The notes under the pieces: model-generated
Databases searched by the model: none
Seen by the model: the letters and a program-made list of their open reading frames with translations, nothing else
What the model was told of the DNA's origin: nothing
Position numbers and translations under genes: made by a program
Shown: positions 1 to 57,722 of the stretch, in pieces
How the letters are laid out: each line of letters opens with the position of its first letter
Numbering within the stretch: position 1 is the stretch's first letter
Source of the DNA: Farysia itapuensis
Taxonomy: Eukaryota > Basidiomycota > Ustilaginomycetes > Ustilaginales > Ustilaginaceae
DNA length: 64,000 nucleotides
Assembly (NCBI GenBank): GCA_023212645.1
Contig: JALBYC010000009.1
Location: 310,001 to 374,000 of the forward strand
Direction: 5' to 3'

Positions 1-87
1 CGCACCCTTTTCCGCTCCTGTACGCCATGTCCGACCGAAATACACGCGATATTGATGCACAAATCGATGATCAGACGGTGGATCGTG

Positions 88-122
88 GATCGTGAGAAGC
101 AGATCGTGAGAAGCAGATCGTG
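88..122. repeat. short 14-bp tandem repeat
   Basis: The unit GATCGTGAGAAGCA occurs twice in tandem, followed by a partial third copy (GATCGTG). The flanks are also rich in GATC/ATCGTGA words. No function can be assigned. Confidence 0.7.
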
Positions 123-279
123 TATCGTGAGATATGAATATGAATCTGAGATCGTGTCCGGATCGCGGATAGATCATGAGATCATCAGATCACGCAGGGT
201 GGTTGGGGCTGTCAGATCGCTAAAAAATGATTGTGGTACCAGTATCTGGTCCTTGGAATCAGAATTGACCTGATTACCC

Positions 280-301
280 ATTCTGATCCCAGAATCAGAA
301 T
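280..301. other. 8-bp inverted repeat (hairpin)
   Basis: ATTCTGAT and ATCAGAAT are perfect reverse complements separated by six bases. The word GAATCAGAATT also occurs at about 256. It could be a protein-binding palindrome or chance. Confidence 0.4.
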
Positions 302-1164
302 TTGGCAATATCCGATGTGATTTGCTGATTTCGTCCGGGCCGGGATCAGCAGTGTACAGACACTGATTCGCGCTCAGGGTCCTGGAGCTGTACCAAATTT
401 TTTTGGCAAATTCGCTTGCTGGGTGCCAGAAGAGCTGGAGGAATATTAATACAAAATGCTGACGGCGATTGAATTGCGCGTTTGACATGTGTTAAAATCA
501 TCAGTTGGAGCTTGCCACTCGATAAGATTCGACGACTGCGAATTGAGGTCATTCGGCCATATTTACGGTCATGGGAGTTGCTCTAGCCAAGACAAGACAA
601 GTTGAAGATCGGCGCAGAGCAGGAAATTCTGCCTGAAGGCTCCGAGACAGAAAAATATTGACATGAACGTCGGCGTTGTGAGCTGGCTTTTGTTCTCACA
701 TCTACACCGCTCCTCACACCCAGCCACAATTACACCACCTGGCATTGCTCGGCCTGAAAGCACGCCGTAGCATCACTGTACCGGTTTGCAAGAAAGCTTT
801 GACAGCAGAAGCGCAATTAAGAGGAGGAGCCCCGATTGCCGACTTCATAAGTGCGAACTGACGCTGTTGCCAAGTTGGGCACGTTCCCTCGTATTTGGCC
901 ACGTTGCATCTTGTCAGCCTTGTCCCTCTCCCAACACTGCATTCCAGCCCCTCCCACAACCAACACCGAGGTAAGCATCGCTCTCGCAAAGCGGGCCTTG
1001 CGAAATTTAGCCACGTCAAACACCCCGTAGTCGTCTTGTCACGCTTGCGGCGCTAGCGTTTCTCCACGTTGGTGCTCTTTCTGTGCTGCGTTTACGTCGC
1101 GTGCTATCGTCCACGCCTCCATCATTACTATTGGCCTACATCGTCTCACAATCCTACGTCCGAC

Positions 1165-50678: not shown

Positions 50679-50686
50679 GAAAACTC
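50679..50686. repeat. left target-site duplication of the transposon
   Basis: GAAAACTC sits directly outside the left inverted repeat and recurs directly outside the right one (56748-56755). It is 8 bp if the final G of the right terminus is counted as flank, 7 bp (AAAACTC) if the two termini are taken as symmetrical. Confidence 0.85.
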
Positions 50687-50700
50687 CACAATGAAAAATC
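50687..50700 (+). repeat. left terminal inverted repeat
   Basis: CACAATGAAAAATC pairs with the right end in inverted orientation with two mismatches. Confidence 0.82.
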
Positions 50701-50704
50701 GGAA

Positions 50705-50923
50705 CCGACAAAATTCCGACAAAATACCGACAAAATGACTTTTTTGAAAAGTCGGTCTCAGATCCAAATGCCGGACCGACAAGAGTCGAAAAAATACCGA
50801 CAAATGGTACCGACATCGAACCGACAAAGGCCCACAATACCGACAAAATACCGACAATAGGTACCGACAACGGGTACCGACATCAGACCGACAAAGACAC
50901 AAAGTACCGACAAACAACCGACA
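50705..50923 (+). repeat. left subterminal CCGACA array (14 copies)
   Basis: CCGACA starts at 50705, 50716, 50727, 50776, 50797, 50810, 50821, 50840, 50851, 50864, 50877, 50888, 50907 and 50918, usually followed by A/AA and often preceded by TA. Steps of 11 bp recur (six of thirteen), placing neighbouring motifs about one helical turn apart. These are candidate binding sites for an element-encoded protein. Confidence 0.9.
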
Positions 50924-51061
50924 AATATTGGACTCTCAATCAGCCAGCCTGAGCACGTATACGGATCACAGCCGCACAAATTTGTATGCATCTACACAGA
51001 TTGCGCTGGGACAACGGGGCGGACTGGGCGCGCTTGGCGACGCGGGCGAAAGACGACGAGA

Positions 51062-52845
51062 CTAAGACTTCGAGGACCTGCAAAGGGTGGAATATAGCTG
51101 TTAGTCACAGCTCGCTCGCTGGCAAATACCATATCTTTCTGGGCGTACTTACCTTTTCCTCTTGCTTTGCACGATCCTGGAGGTAGTCCGGGGCCCGGGA
51201 GTGTCGCGAGTGTTGGCCGCGGTGCTCGTGTTGTTGGGCCTTGTTCCTCGCAACAACTTCAGGAGGAGAGGCTTGGTAAGGTCAGTGATGTGACTGCCTA
51301 CCAAAGGATCGCCTTTGCCCCCGAGCTCCTCGACTTGCCATGCCGCGACCAGGTACGCGGTCAGCAGTACCTGGAAGCAGCGGGCCGCGTTCGCCTTGCT
51401 CCCGAATGCGACTCGGTCCCCCAGCGCCTCCAGCCGGTCGACTGAGGGCCAAGACCACAGAGCATCGTGTGCGAAAGTCACGCCACGGTTGTCGTCGGTC
51501 GTGTCGAACACCTCGTTGGCCCTCTCGAGGCCTTGCATCCAGGCCTCGAGTTCGGGGGCGGCGTCGCCCGCCCAAATCTCCTCTCCGCTATCCCTGGCCT
51601 CTCGTAGGAAGCCGGCCAAGGTCGATTGGCCAGGGAAGCGGGTGAAGAGGTCGCCACATTGCACGTGCTCCGCAAGCACACGGACTGTGGACATTGAGAC
51701 CACAAAGTTGAACAGGTAATGTAAGTTGGATTGTGACAGGTATTTCCGAAGCCATGGGCGTACTTACAGTCGGGTGTCAATTTCCTTTTTAGGTCCAGCA
51801 AGATCAGTGTCTGTCTTTGCTGCAGTTGAGAGTTAGAGCTCTCAGCATCGTGGCGTGGGCCAGGCGCACTGGTTGAAGCAGGTATTGACTCCTTCCCTTT
51901 GCCTTTGCATGTGGCATTGGCCTTCGCCTTGCCCTTGTCCTTCTTTTCGGCCTGACTCTTTGCCTTGCCCTTGCCTTTGCTCTGGGTCTCAAGTTGCAAG
52001 ACAGCAGGGTCCTGGGGCGGGTGTTCGACAGCAGGTGCCTGGGGTGGGTGTTCGACAGCAGGTGCCTGGGGCGGGTGTTCGACAGCAGGTGCCTGGGGTG
52101 GGTGTTCGACAGCAGGTGCCTGGGCTGGTTGTTCGACAGCAGGTGCCTGGGCTGGTTGTTCGACAGCAGGTGCCCGGAGCCGGCGTTCGCGCAGCTTGTT
52201 TCCGTCCCGGAAGTGCCGCTGCAGGAGGCATCGTGCCTTCCAGCCATCCTCAGCCCAGGATACTTCGAGGCAGCGCTCTTCGAGCTCGTTCAGTGCCAAC
52301 ATCAGTGCCACATTGTGGTTCTTGTGCAAGTAATTGTACGTTGGCCGCGTCACCGAAGTTTCGTGCCGGATGCTTAGGAGCAGGGTGTGTCCCACGGACT
52401 TGACAGTCCGGCGGATCGACCGAAGACGCGTCTTGCCTTCGGCAGTGTCTCGTAGGAAATTGCCATCAGTATCGACGAGGATGAGTTCACTGGTCCATTG
52501 CGCCATTGGCTTCTTGTATCTCTGTTCCGCTTCGCTCAGGTAGTACATGCATTTCTGCTTTTCAGCCTCCGACAGCGTGCTATGTTGTCGAGCAGCGGTG
52601 CGGTGCGTTGCAATTTGCTGGCGTAAGGATTCCAGTTGCTGGGTAAGCTGTTCCTTTTCATGGGCCCAAGCTTGGGAGCTTTGGTTGGCCTTCTCGGTCA
52701 TGTCTTGCAGGTTCTTTTCGAGGGAGGAGTTTTCGGCAGCTTTGATGGTAAGCTTTGACTCCAACAGGTCAATTTTCGTGTTTCGCAATTCCAAATCCTT
52801 GTGCAGGAGCTGCAGGTCGCTAGCTGAGTTTTGACAATCTGTCAT
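51062..52845 (-). CDS. transposon second protein: coiled coil plus 9-residue repeats (TnpA-like candidate)
   Basis: The model is exons 51768-52845, 51153-51684 and 51062-51077, with introns of 83 and 75 nt (GTAAGT donors, CACAG and TTGCAG acceptors, a CTAAC branch in the second). It gives about 541 aa; if the last intron is retained, the protein stops at 51149. The N-terminal 120 residues form a coiled coil (LLHKDLELRNTKIDLLESKL, EKEQLTQQLESLRQQIA). A conserved-looking domain follows (KKPMAQWTSELILVDTDGNF, RSVGHTLLL-like region, LEVSWAEDGWKARCLLQRHF). Next are six APAVE[HQ]PPQ-type repeats, a Lys/Gly-rich basic stretch (QSKGKGKAKSQAEKKDKGK), and a C-terminal domain (LAEHVQCGDLFTRFPGQS). I recognise no family. 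By position it is the counterpart of En/Spm TnpA and may bind the CCGACA arrays. Confidence 0.7.
51078..51152 (-). other. probable intron 2 of the transposon second gene
   Basis: Donor GTAAGT overlaps the TAA that would otherwise end the frame. A perfect CTAAC branch site and TTTGCAG acceptor lie 75 nt on. Only 16 coding bases follow. Confidence 0.6.
51685..51767 (-). other. intron 1 of the transposon second gene
   Basis: This 83-nt intron has donor GTAAGT and acceptor TCCACAG. It joins KLTPD to FRVLAEHV. Confidence 0.8.
52013..52175. repeat. 27-bp tandem repeat, about six copies
   Basis: The minus-strand unit encodes APAVEHPPQ or APAVEQPAQ. Adjacent copies are almost identical, which suggests recent expansion by slippage or unequal exchange. 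Confidence 0.9.
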
Positions 52846-52942
52846 TTTGCGGAAAATTTAAGCGGGGGCTTGTTGAAGTGGTGGTGTGCTTGGGGAACGG
52901 CGTTGATCAGTCTGCGTGAATGGTAGTCGTGAATGTGGCAAA

Positions 52943-53003
52943 GGGACTCAGCTGAGACCCCTCAGGTGAGGGACTTAGCTGAGAGACTTAGCTGAGGGAC
53001 TTA
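52943..53003. repeat. 13-14-bp tandem repeat in the transposon spacer
   Basis: About four degenerate copies of GGGACTTAGCTGAG lie roughly 100-160 bp upstream of the second-protein start codon. The core AGCTGAG/CTCAGCT is partly palindromic (CTCAGCTGAG). Confidence 0.75.
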
Positions 53004-53029
53004 AAGTTAAGCTTCCTACCGAAAGGACG

Positions 53030-53057
53030 CGTGACTACGCGCGCGCATATAGTCACG
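53030..53057. other. 8-bp inverted repeat with CG-alternating loop
   Basis: CGTGACTA and TAGTCACG are exact reverse complements around CGCGCGCGCATA, within the transposon spacer. Confidence 0.6.
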
Positions 53058-53190
53058 TCGCGAACTGTTCAGTTAACGGCTTGGCCGACAGATTCTGCTA
53101 ATCGATAAGTGGGCGGGACGTGCAATTACTGACTATAGTAGCGCTAGATGTGCTGAAGGTCGAGGGAGGTGACGTGTCAACGACATCTAC

Positions 53191-56100
53191 TTAGTAGTCT
53201 ACTTCCTCTTCTGCAGTCGTTTGCCATACGTTTTCGGGTTGTTCGAGAGTAGCAACAAACTTGAGACAGTGAAAAAGGTAAGAGACGCCTCTGACTTGGT
53301 AAAGACCCAGCAGTTCCTTGATCTGGTCAACACGCAGGACAACGCGTTCGGTTTCAGGGCCGACTTTGACGTAGTCAAGACATCTCTCGCAGTTGACGTA
53401 CTTCTGCATCAAAACAAGTGGAGAGCAAATGTTCCGCGAGTCGACCATAAACTGAATCGCTTGTCCGTATATGTCATGGCCGAAATCGTCTTGCGCCTGT
53501 AGTATATATAGCAAAGCGTAGCGTTAGGTATGCTATACAGTCACAGAGTCCTACATTCCATCTCGAATTACCCTTATGATCGAGCTCTGTCTTGCCTGCT
53601 CTTTACGAGACGTTCGGACACCAGTTATCGTGACACCAGACTCGAGGGTGTGTTTGCCGAACAGGTTTACGGAAGCAACAGGCACGTCCAGCGCAGCCAA
53701 GGCATCTGTCACCGCTTGCTCATCCTCGAGGGTTAGATCTCGACTAAGATGGCTGGGAAGTTTTGTACTGAAGCGGGCGGAAGTCTCTCGATCGGTAGTT
53801 TCTTGAGGATATAGCCAATTAATCAGCTTTACAGCCTCTCGTTGAAACAGGCGGTTGCTCAGTGTCTTGTAGTCAAGTTTGGACCATCCTTGCCTGGACT
53901 TGAGCAGCCCTATCTCCCTCTCGCAACAGGCCTGTGACGTGATTCTTACGCTCCCATGTGACTTCATATAGTCCTGAAGGTGCAGAAGATAGTGAAGGGA
54001 GATTGTTGCCCTTTTCACCCTAGAAAGATCGTCTCCAACGTACAGGCGCTCGAACTCCTTGCAAAATGCGCTGAAGTGCGAGTGCATCTCTGCGAGATCT
54101 TCGTGAGACAAGCCTTCGACGCAAAGGGCCAGCTTCATGCCTAATCTCAGACGGTGCAGCATACGGCTAACTTCGTATGGAGCTCCAATCTCAAGCAGAA
54201 ATGCACCTAGGTGATAGTACATGACCGTTGATAGCTCGGAAGCCCTGTATGCTGAGTCAAGACACACGGCAGGGTCTCGAGGCGTGCCCGTGACAAAGGC
54301 GACGGGAAGTCCGCTTTTGTTGTCCACGACCGAGCGACCGAACTCTTCCCATATAGTCGGGGGCAAAGAATAGCCGTCACCAGGAAGACATTCCTTGATG
54401 GTCTTGAGCACTAATTGGGGGATATTGAGACCACTTAAGTGGAATATGTCCAAAGGGAAGAAGGCGGGAAAGGAAAAGGTGTCGAGATTGTGAAACACAG
54501 ATCGTCCTTTGATCCCGTACGTGGTGATGTATGCATCTTTGATCTCAGCATCATCAGCCGCTTCGATTTGATCCACTCGAAATCGGTAATCTCGATCGCT
54601 GCGCAAGGGAAGATTGAAGGGATCGTAGTCTGCGATCCGCCAAGAGTTAATTGATTCGCCAACCTCATCAATTAACGTGTCCGCTTGGTCGGGAGTGCGC
54701 AAGGGAAAGTAAGATTGTGTTGATACCACACCCTTTGCTCCGGTGATCTCGCACACACGGCAGCCCCTGAATCCGTTCGTGCCGGTGAGCTTGGACAATT
54801 TTGATGAAGCAGGTTGGTCTGCGCAGACACCCAAAACTCGGGCTCGCAACATGAACATTGACTCTTTGGCTGGATCCCAGGTAGGAAAGCCTGGGCCTGT
54901 TATCTCTTCAACTATTGGCAGTAGGAAAGAGTCCAGATCGACAGGAGATTTCGGGCCAGGAATAATGGTAATTAGCATTGTCTCGGAAGCCTTGAACCGC
55001 TTCTCTGGGCTCAAATTCAGCCGTGTTGCAAGCACAAGCCAGCCACTGGAGGGCTTCCCGTCCTTCCATTCCGCAGCATCGAGGGAAAGGAACAGGAATT
55101 CATCCCTTGGGTCGCTGTCACCATTGGCATTTTCGTAAAGCCAGGCAGCAACATCACCATCCGGAAAGTCCTTGAAGAGATGATGGGGGGTGTTTCGCGT
55201 CGTCTGAGCCTTGGACGTGGCCGTCGAACGGTACGCGGCGTCGTGAAGTTGACCATGTGCAAGCTTGGCGCTGATTCGCGGCAGGACAGGCAGAAAGGAG
55301 AAGCGCGCCCTTGCTTCGCGCTTTTGAGTGTACCTGGGCAAGCCACAAATGGTCGAACCCCTCCGAGCTGGACAGTGGTCCAGCTCCGCATACAGTCCAG
55401 TGTAGGCAATGCACGAATTAGAGCACATGTCGATTTCGATGGCGCCTAGACCGGTGACCTCTCGAACAAGCTGGGTCGCCTTGTAAAGTGATCTTAATTG
55501 TAGCTTGTCGTTGAAACGGTTCCAAAGGGCGCGCTGACGGCGGTAAGAAGCCTCAGAGTGTTTGCCCTCGGCCCAATATCGATAATTCTGTAAGTCAGCT
55601 TCTTCCTCTCTTGTGAGAGATGCCGCTTTATCTCCAGCTCTAGGAACGGCGGCCGATGTGAGAGCCTGTAGCACCTGCCTTTGCACTGGCAATGGCGAGA
55701 CGTCGTCATCTGATCCGAGACTTGCATCGAATTGGTCCTGTTCTAGATTTTCTTCAGCGATAGGTAGCACAAAGATGCTTTCTTCTTCTACTTCGCCTGG
55801 ATCTACATGGTCCATGCTTTCTTGCTCTGCCTGATCTGTGCTCGCTTCGTCCATGCTCGCTTCGTCCATGCTCGCTTCGTCCATGCTCGCTTTGTCCATG
55901 CTCGCTTCGTCCATGCTTGCTTCGTCCATGCTTTCTTCGTCCAAGCTTTCTTCGCTCATGCTTTCTTCGCTCATGCTTTCTTCGCTCACGCTTTCGTGTC
56001 CTGCTTCGCTCAGACACATATCGTGCATGCTTTGTTGTTCGACTTCGCTCGACTCTGCCGCGTCCATGACTCGCTCACGCACGAAGTTGTCTCCTCTGCC

Positions 56101-56418
56101 CGAAAAGCCTGTTTGAAAGATGTCACCAGGAGGGACGTCAAGGAGAATGGACGCGAAACCCAACGTGTGTAGTCTCTACTTACCTGCAAGCCCTTTGGCT
56201 AATAACGTGGCCATAATCTCTTCGTTCAGATACATGCCGGCGTCGTTGGACTGGAGACAAAACTTTAGCCTCTTCAGCTCGATTGGATCATGCGTCGTTT
56301 GCATTAAGTGACGATCATGGCGAACATGACTGCGTCTGGTCTCTGGGTGTACGCTTCTGCCTCTTCCGCACTTGGAGCAGAAACAGTCAACACGTTTCGA
56401 CGCCGTGGAGTCAGTCAT
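53191..56418 (-). CDS. Tnp2/EnSpm-type transposase (three exons)
   Basis: The model is exons 56184-56418, 53572-56108 and 53191-53496, with two 75-nt introns (donors GTAAGT and GTAATT; acceptors AACAG and CTACAG). It gives 1,025 aa. Residues 10-30 form a Cys/His cluster (CFCSKC, HVRHDRH). About residues 117-170 are ten acidic pentapeptide repeats of the MDEAS type. The Tnp2 core follows: AEGKHSEASYRRQ, LDHCPARRGSTICGLPRY, FLSLDAAEWKD (D about 422), LITIIPGPKSPVDLDSFLLP, RVLGVCADQPAS, GFRGCRVC, PLDIFHLSGLNIPQLV (D about 632) and ACCEREIGLLKSRQG (E about 808). The last three acidic positions can form the DDE triad. Exon 3 supplies DIYGQAIQFMV to the C terminus. It probably cuts and joins the element ends; its promoter lies in the right-hand CCGACA array. 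Confidence 0.85.
53497..53571 (-). other. intron 2 of the transposase gene
   Basis: This 75-nt, phase-0 intron has donor GTAATT, a CTAAC branch site and acceptor CTACAG. Confidence 0.75.
55846..55998. repeat. 15-bp tandem repeats encoding acidic pentapeptides
   Basis: About ten 15-bp units (minus strand MDEAS, MSEES, LDEES, MDKAS) sit in the N-terminal part of the transposase. Confidence 0.9.
56109..56183 (-). other. intron 1 of the transposase gene
   Basis: This 75-nt intron has donor GTAAGT and acceptor AAACAG. It joins AKGLA to GFSGRGDN across a split Gly codon. Confidence 0.8.
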
Positions 56419-56611
56419 CGTTTCCACAAGACAGCGAGGAATCAAAGACCTAGCGGCAGACTCCGTTGTATCAATCAAAGAACCCTGGACCACAGAACAT
56501 ACGAGAGCAAAAGGTAGAATAGACGGGCAGACGCACACATGCGCATACGTTCAAACAAAAGACACAAAGGTAAATCGACATGTTACATACCTCCACAGAT
56601 CGCGACCTTGA

Positions 56612-56729
56612 TGTCGGTTGCTTGTCGGTTGCGTCACTCTAAAAAAGGTATTTTGTCGGTTGCGTCACCCTTAAACAGGTATTTTGTCGGTACGGAGTCA
56701 CCACTTTGTCGGTTCCGGTATTTTGTCGG
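56612..56729 (-). repeat. right subterminal CCGACA array (6 inverted copies)
   Basis: TGTCGG begins at 56612, 56623, 56654, 56685, 56707 and 56724. Two copies lie in a 31-bp tandem unit that also contains GGTTGCGTCAC and GGTATTT. It overlaps the transposase promoter (the start codon is at 56418). Confidence 0.88.
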
Positions 56730-56734
56730 TTTTA

Positions 56735-56748
56735 GATTTCTCACTGTG
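56735..56748 (-). repeat. right terminal inverted repeat
   Basis: GATTTCTCACTGTG is the reverse complement of CACAGTGAGAAATC and matches the left end at 12 of 14 positions. Confidence 0.82.
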
Positions 56749-56755
56749 AAAACTC
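56748..56755. repeat. right target-site duplication of the transposon
   Basis: GAAAACTC (or AAAACTC from 56749) repeats the left flank exactly. Confidence 0.85.
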
Positions 56756-57722
56756 ATAAACTCAAATCTTATTGCAGCTGTGTGGGACTGATGAAGCAGA
56801 CTCGCAACCGGTCCCGGATTGCTGCGCACAATCTAGCGCAAAGTTGATAAAGACAATGCCAACCATGATAACAAGAGACTTTCTGAAACGCCAGCATCGA
56901 GTTTTGCCGCCCCTTTCCGTTGTATCCGCGGCGTCCACCTCTTGAAACGCACGGGTCTACCCCACTTTAAGACGATCGTGGATCTGATAACGTGGGGGGA
57001 CGGCCACAAATCAGCGTGGGCGACAGAGGCTTGAACAGACGGCGTGACGAGCTGCAGTCGGTCCGATCCGTTGTCAGAAAGATCCCCACGCCACTTGATC
57101 GATGGAGAAAGCGGGAAATGGATAAACTTTGACGACGGCAAAAGCGAAAATGACAGCCTCGCACTTGACGATGACGATTTCTAATCCAATCGAAGCTGTC
57201 GCTCGCAATCACGATGCTTGTTCCAGGGTCACAAGATTTGGGACCTGATGAACTTGATTATCGCTAGTCTGAGCACGCTAGAGTCTACGAGCAAGCTCTG
57301 ACTTCATCTCACGCGTGTTTCCGGACTCATATCGAGGCATGTTGGTCAGCATGCTTGTCCTTTGACGGATGCCAGACCGGTCCGGTCAGATGTCCTCGCT
57401 TATATGCTAGCGGGGTCTACATGCGATGCCAAGTCTGTGCATGGTGTGAGGGCATAAATTTCCCCCACGACGATTAGTCGAATTATTGGGGCTTCTTTTA
57501 CGATCCCCACACTTGGTGCATGACGGCAGTGTTCTGGCGTCCCTGCCCCGCATTTTTGAGTTTGTGACGGAAATTACACGCTGTCATTGTGCCGCTATAC
57601 GCTAGACCCTTGTGCGACATAAGCACAAAGGTCCAGAAAGGTACAAGAAGGCAAACTTGCCACCACTCCGCAATAACTTTCCCCATCCCCTGTCTCTCCT
57701 CCTCTCTGTGCCACATTCCGCT
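56756..57722. other. intergenic region, no gene seen
   Basis: This is the native flank of the transposon insertion followed by the promoter of the sugar/quinate-type transporter. Short frames on the minus strand (about 56830-57210) lack recognisable features. A CT-rich leader lies at about 57680-57720. Confidence 0.45.

Follow-up and report, generated by a model that had tools for sequence, protein, structure and literature searches.

The window, a 64,000-nucleotide stretch of Farysia itapuensis DNA, contains a real, autonomous-looking DNA transposon of the CACTA/EnSpm type, probably a novel variant whose stagger is longer. The element spans positions 50687..56748 (6,062 bp, no strand assigned), as delimited by its matching ends and by a duplication in its flanks. 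Its protein and termini place it with CACTA/EnSpm elements; the length of its target-site duplication does not, because the duplication measures 7 bp and those of the CMCT group measure 2–5 bp. Strict EnSpm/CACTA membership fails on one tested feature, duplication length, as read from one insertion.

The two ends are near-matching inverted repeats of the type CACA[A/G]TGA, as originally described. The left terminal repeat CACAATGAAAAATC (50687..50700, plus strand) and the right terminal repeat CACAGTGAGAAATC (reverse complement; 56735..56748, minus strand) are identical at 12 of 14 positions, and the CACA..TGTG borders have the CA..TG (CAC..GTG) form of EnSpm/CACTA termini. For these symmetric borders we compared the flanks at k = 1 to 10 and found a match at k = 7 only, with AAAACTC at 50680..50686 and again at 56749..56755 (both plus strand). 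An exact flanking duplication of 7–8 bp had been proposed; the 7-bp version stands, and an 8-bp version would require asymmetric ends. The sum of identical end positions and matching flank bases is 12 + 7 = 19 for this element, whereas the best of 60 random window pairs with the same spacing reached 16. Together with the Transposase_21 match described below, the borders and this score uphold the original prediction of a complete two-gene Tnp2-type transposon at this position. A scan for border pairs around the element returned one further pair, with a score of 13. Ten CACA..TGTG pairs in the window lie 0.8–12 kb apart and have a flank match of at least 6 bp; the ends of the element are the best among them, and those of the other nine agree at 5–9 of 14 positions. 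In the 13.7-Mb genome the 14-bp end pattern CACANTGANAAATC occurs without mismatch at two places, which are the two ends of the element; with up to 2 mismatches it occurs at 768 places, compared with 471 for the reversed control.

Next to both ends lie the inward-facing CCGACA arrays that the original prediction had reported. The left array (50705..50923, plus strand) comprises 14 motifs within 237 bp of the end, and the right array (56612..56729, minus strand) comprises 6 inverted motifs within 137 bp of the end. Elsewhere in the window no three CCGACA motifs, on either strand, fall inside 100 bp. A first array scan of the genome gave 23 matches (control: 2), with 14 in the element and 2 at the C1 locus; a second scan gave 36 matches (control: 17), of which the element accounts for 16, C1 for 3 and C14 for 1. 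Two other array-like places showed no relation to the transposase or to the gene-2 protein: C33, which looks retroelement-like by eye, and C46, which sits inside a 1,056-aa open frame. At the array-like places C23, C1:199041, C3:353896 and C22 and at the C29 array flank, tblastn found no match to either protein of the element. At C23, CCGACATAACCTTCCA-like units form a short tandem array (L022 ~1469-1549), which is probably unrelated to the element.

Both genes are open and read from the minus strand, as had been claimed, and their four introns were predicted from reading frame and splice consensus. The transposase gene (53191..56418) consists of three exons (56418-56184, 56108-53572 and 53496-53191) separated by two 75-nt introns, and the predicted splicing gives the expected product of 1,025 aa. 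Its main exon matches the Pfam family Transposase_21 (tnp2, PF02992) with E = 7.3e-15 and 55.2 bits (cut-off 28.6), and this is the only Pfam family at E ≤ 1 in the three exon frames. Judging from conservation, the candidate catalytic residues are D422, D509 and E703, accompanied by C528xxC531 and H635 (D366, D453, E647, C472xxC475 and H579 in main-exon numbering). In alignment A1, which contains eight sequences including the transposase of the element, D422, C528 and C531 are conserved in 8/8 and D509, E703 and H635 in 7/8. Row P0002 of A1 misses E703, which is aligned in all seven sequences of alignment A2 (7/7), so that the assignment of this residue depends on the alignment. Of the C(2)C and H(3-4)H motifs that CMCT transposases carry between the second D and the E, the second histidine was not recognised in the transposase. 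An AlphaFold model of the protein was unusable (mean pLDDT 37.4), and a PDB sequence search with A3 gave no matches at E ≤ 1. The protein collection holds at least 5 relatives of the transposase among 7,995 scored candidates, and profile A2 found at least 5 among 7,996, one of them new. Neither the one stretch from viral_contigs nor any of the 14 from genome_contigs was confirmed as a relative.

Gene 2 (51062..52845, minus strand) has two introns, with exons at 52845-51768 and 51684-51153 and a short last exon at 51077-51062 or at an alternative acceptor; depending on this last acceptor the product has 541 or 568 aa, and the 3′ end varies accordingly. By eye, the N-terminal part of the protein is coiled-coil-like and its middle is repetitive. 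Pfam gave no family above cut-off for gene 2. In this genome its sequence finds eight matching places including gene 2 itself, the weakest with E = 0.014. We regard its product as most likely the binder of the CCGACA arrays, a role that we propose by analogy: in the available excerpts of PMC2613891, transposition follows a two-protein scheme of TNPA and TNPD, and TNPA acts on the subterminal repeats of maize En/Spm.

These observations suggest how the element may move. A tnp2-type DDE transposase would cut at the CACA..TGTG ends; the gene-2 protein would bind the inward CCGACA arrays and help to unite the ends, much as TNPA does; and integration by a 7-base staggered cut would leave a duplication of 7 bp where 2–5 bp are usual. 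A complete, autonomous-looking CACTA/EnSpm (CMCT) cut-and-paste transposon, with gene 2 as array-binding protein and a 7-base staggered integration, is the reading that we favour with fair confidence. Within it, DNA binding by gene 2, a 7-base stagger as the habit of the enzyme and present activity of the element are all steps that we infer.

The duplications of EnSpm/CACTA elements usually measure 2–3 bp. The duplication of Abr1 measures 7 bp. Our element resembles EnSpm/CACTA elements (maize En/Spm, fungal EnSpm) in its tnp2-type transposase, its CAC/CA..TG ends, its subterminal repeats and a putative second DNA-binding protein. It differs from them in its 7-bp duplication and in a separate gene 2, for whose main frame (459 aa) none of the 7,994 scored candidates of the protein collection proved to be a relative. 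In the excerpts seen of a study by Kojima, CMCT lineages have CA..TG termini "in most cases" and duplications of 2–5 bp (PMC12730594). The Cryptococcus neoformans elements CNIRT6 (CACTG ends, 3-bp duplication) and CNEST (CACGG ends, TA duplication) likewise have fungal CMC transposases and ends starting with CAC; their duplications agree with the CMCT range and differ from the 7 bp found here (PMC12810828, in the part available). ESTA, Plavaka, Transib and Chapaev share a DDE transposase with C(2)C and mostly CA..TG ends with our element, and as a group differ from it by their 2–5 bp duplications, according to the same portion of PMC12730594. Plavaka, for which that source gives TGT..ACA or CATCA..TGATG ends and a 2–3 bp duplication, was rejected as a home for the element because Pfam gave no such match and the ends differ. 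In the accessible sections of the respective papers, SmTRC1 has CCC ends and a 2-bp duplication in 7 of 14 copies, which fits the CMCT range (PMC1636069), soybean Tgmt* has a 3-bp duplication (PMC2613891) and Styx, whose superfamily is not named there, has a 6-bp duplication (PMC10853768); an Agaricus element that lacks an intact transposase gene shows 9-bp duplications, and an ABR1 homologue is there called hAT-type (PMC10051438). In a largely open-access body of literature, the titles, abstract openings and passages covered by the search describe no tnp2/EnSpm element whose duplication is 7 bp long.

Two two-gene tnp2 elements, one with a 3-bp and one with a 7-bp duplication, lie on this contig and can be compared directly. 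The neighbour (C53:304367-310319) ends at window position 319, about 50 kb from the element at 50687. Its inverted ends start CACATCGGAT and differ at a single position in their first 40 bases, and its flanks match at k = 3 only (ATT). This recovery of 3 bp shows that our flank comparison detects the typical length when an element should have it, and also that in this genome CACA ends accompany an ordinary 3-bp duplication. Both elements carry a Transposase_21 gene, a coiled-coil-like second gene, CACA ends and subterminal repeats; unlike the element at 50687, the neighbour has ends identical at 39/40 bases, a 3-bp duplication, convergent genes and other motifs. The neighbour appears complete with two genes; its right end corresponds to window 1-319 and its subterminal repeats are CTGGTACC/TCTGATTC-like. 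Its second gene has its best Pfam match below cut-off and shows no convincing relation to gene 2 (in a single comparison, the best match spanned 28 aa with E = 0.010).

The strongest alternative to a 7-base stagger is that the element is an ordinary EnSpm/CACTA transposon with a 2–3 bp duplication, the 7-bp flank match being a coincidence or a short tandem repeat that was already there, with the true duplication or a few terminal bases possibly lost. We consider this unlikely, with evidence on both sides. The 2–5 bp given for CMCT elements in the excerpts of PMC12730594 speak for it, as does the neighbour with its CACA ends and 3 bp. A further AAACTC lies at 56758-56763, only 2 bases past the right flank copy, so that local repetition could favour a chance match; among the nine poor-ended CACA..TGTG pairs, one has flanks that agree over 10 bp. 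Counting both strands, the window contains AAAACTC 10 times. However, the symmetric CACA..TGTG borders match at no length except 7, and a 3-bp duplication would require four unmatched extra bases at the right end. The chance of a specified 7-bp match is ~6e-5 (4⁻⁷), and two identical 7-mers stand side by side at 19 of 63,986 window positions (~3e-4); from this one insertion, we rate a 7-base stagger as more likely than coincidence.

The original prediction had also taken termini and duplication to suggest a distinct fungal lineage rather than a standard CACTA element. The part of this argument that concerns the termini falls away, since CMCT termini are mostly CA..TG in the excerpts of PMC12730594 and the 3-bp neighbour also starts with CACA; the 7-bp duplication, beyond 2–5 bp, continues to favour it, from one insertion. 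That the element represents a previously undescribed CMCT lineage, in which a tnp2-type transposase would make a 7-base cut and a rapidly evolving second protein would act on CCGACA arrays, is to us an evenly balanced proposition. The length of a duplication mirrors the spacing that the transposase gives to its two strand-transfer events, and it is used to separate superfamilies. If true, a 7-bp tnp2 element would mean that the stagger can change within the CACTA/EnSpm clade, would caution against classification by duplication length alone and would widen the 2–5 bp range for a clade to which Transib and RAG1 also belong.

A somewhat more doubtful alternative is that the element is an immobile relic whose frames are still open, a reading compatible with our preferred explanation of its origin. 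The original prediction had suggested that the element may be active; its genes are open, yet it was found in one full copy. The presence of a single full copy agrees with it: the whole-element DNA search of the 13.7-Mb genome gave three matches, which are this copy and two fragments (C12 and C14), and no second full copy was found by DNA, protein and end searches. The DNA search with each end, by a method that skips simple and very common words, returned the element only. Copies with borders elsewhere, which according to the original prediction would count against the proposed ends, were likewise not found in this genome. Two further observations point the same way: the sister locus C51 lacks the second D and the conserved histidine, and two relatives of gene 2 are solitary open frames. 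What speaks against an immobile relic is that the element retains both ends, both arrays, the duplication and both genes in intact form, a combination that the examined loci C1, C12, C14 and C51 lack. Far less probable, and already disfavoured, is membership in a superfamily with 7–8 bp duplications, with a transposase that is merely tnp2-like: the excerpts of PMC12810828 and PMC12730594 give 8 bp for KDZ (4–8 bp in two Cryptococcus families) and 7 bp for the Puccinia hAT7 type, and the latter length would fit, but the three exon frames give Transposase_21 only, with no KDZ or hAT Pfam match at E ≤ 1, the duplication is 7 bp and not the 8 bp of KDZ, and a CMCT assignment agrees with the CA..TG ends and with the C2C motif.

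Relics of related elements are scattered through the genome. The C12 fragment (L013 4889-5362, 474 bp) matches the 3′ portion of gene 2 at 87% identity over 467 query bases and has neither CCGACA arrays nor a transposase match; it is a trace of another copy. At C14 the DNA match covers 179 query bases of the transposase at 67% identity, and the protein comparison reveals the start of a decayed transposase, with 6 stops and 25% identity across 375 aligned aa. Upstream of it lie 2 CCGACA motifs oriented as at the right end of the element; by eye, the terminus of this relic has lost its resemblance to the ends. At C1 a 4-motif CCGACA array lies next to the two parts of a decayed gene 2 (36–42% identity), ordered and oriented as in the element, and no transposase match was found in 8,978 bp. 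A CACATAC string immediately outside this array may, by eye, be a former end. Neither C1 nor C14 shows a target-site duplication. Since both relics keep an array beside a gene, arrays and genes belong, and travel, together.

A Transposase_21 search of the genome found three loci: the element, its neighbour at C53:305859 and C51, whose protein is the nearest relative of the transposase (40% identity). The C51 locus has no CCGACA array and no credible ends. A narrow scan for ends found none; the best CAC pair of a wide scan (8/12 end identity, 10-bp flank match) was taken as chance, because one of its ends lies inside the L010:2-1312 frame and the other, by eye, right upstream of the transposase start. 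The tnp2 gene at C51 is flanked by two long open frames with retroelement domains (L010 2716-4452 and 8044-9930); one is above cut-off for Pol_BBD, and the other is above cut-off for GAG-pre-integrase and just below it for the integrase core. These may be domesticated sequences or remnants. The C29 locus holds a gene-2 fragment (L046 1531-1686, 56% over 52 aa) and, about 3.6 kb downstream in matching orientation, a short run of TGTCGGCC-type repeats (L025 1486-1522); together they are possibly a broken relic, or a chance arrangement. Two solitary open frames, at C5 (L042 1225-2187, 321 aa) and at C1:664723 (L044 1375-2190, 272 aa), are related to gene 2 in its N-terminal part. They have a WA..WK..LL motif in common and may have been adopted by the host.
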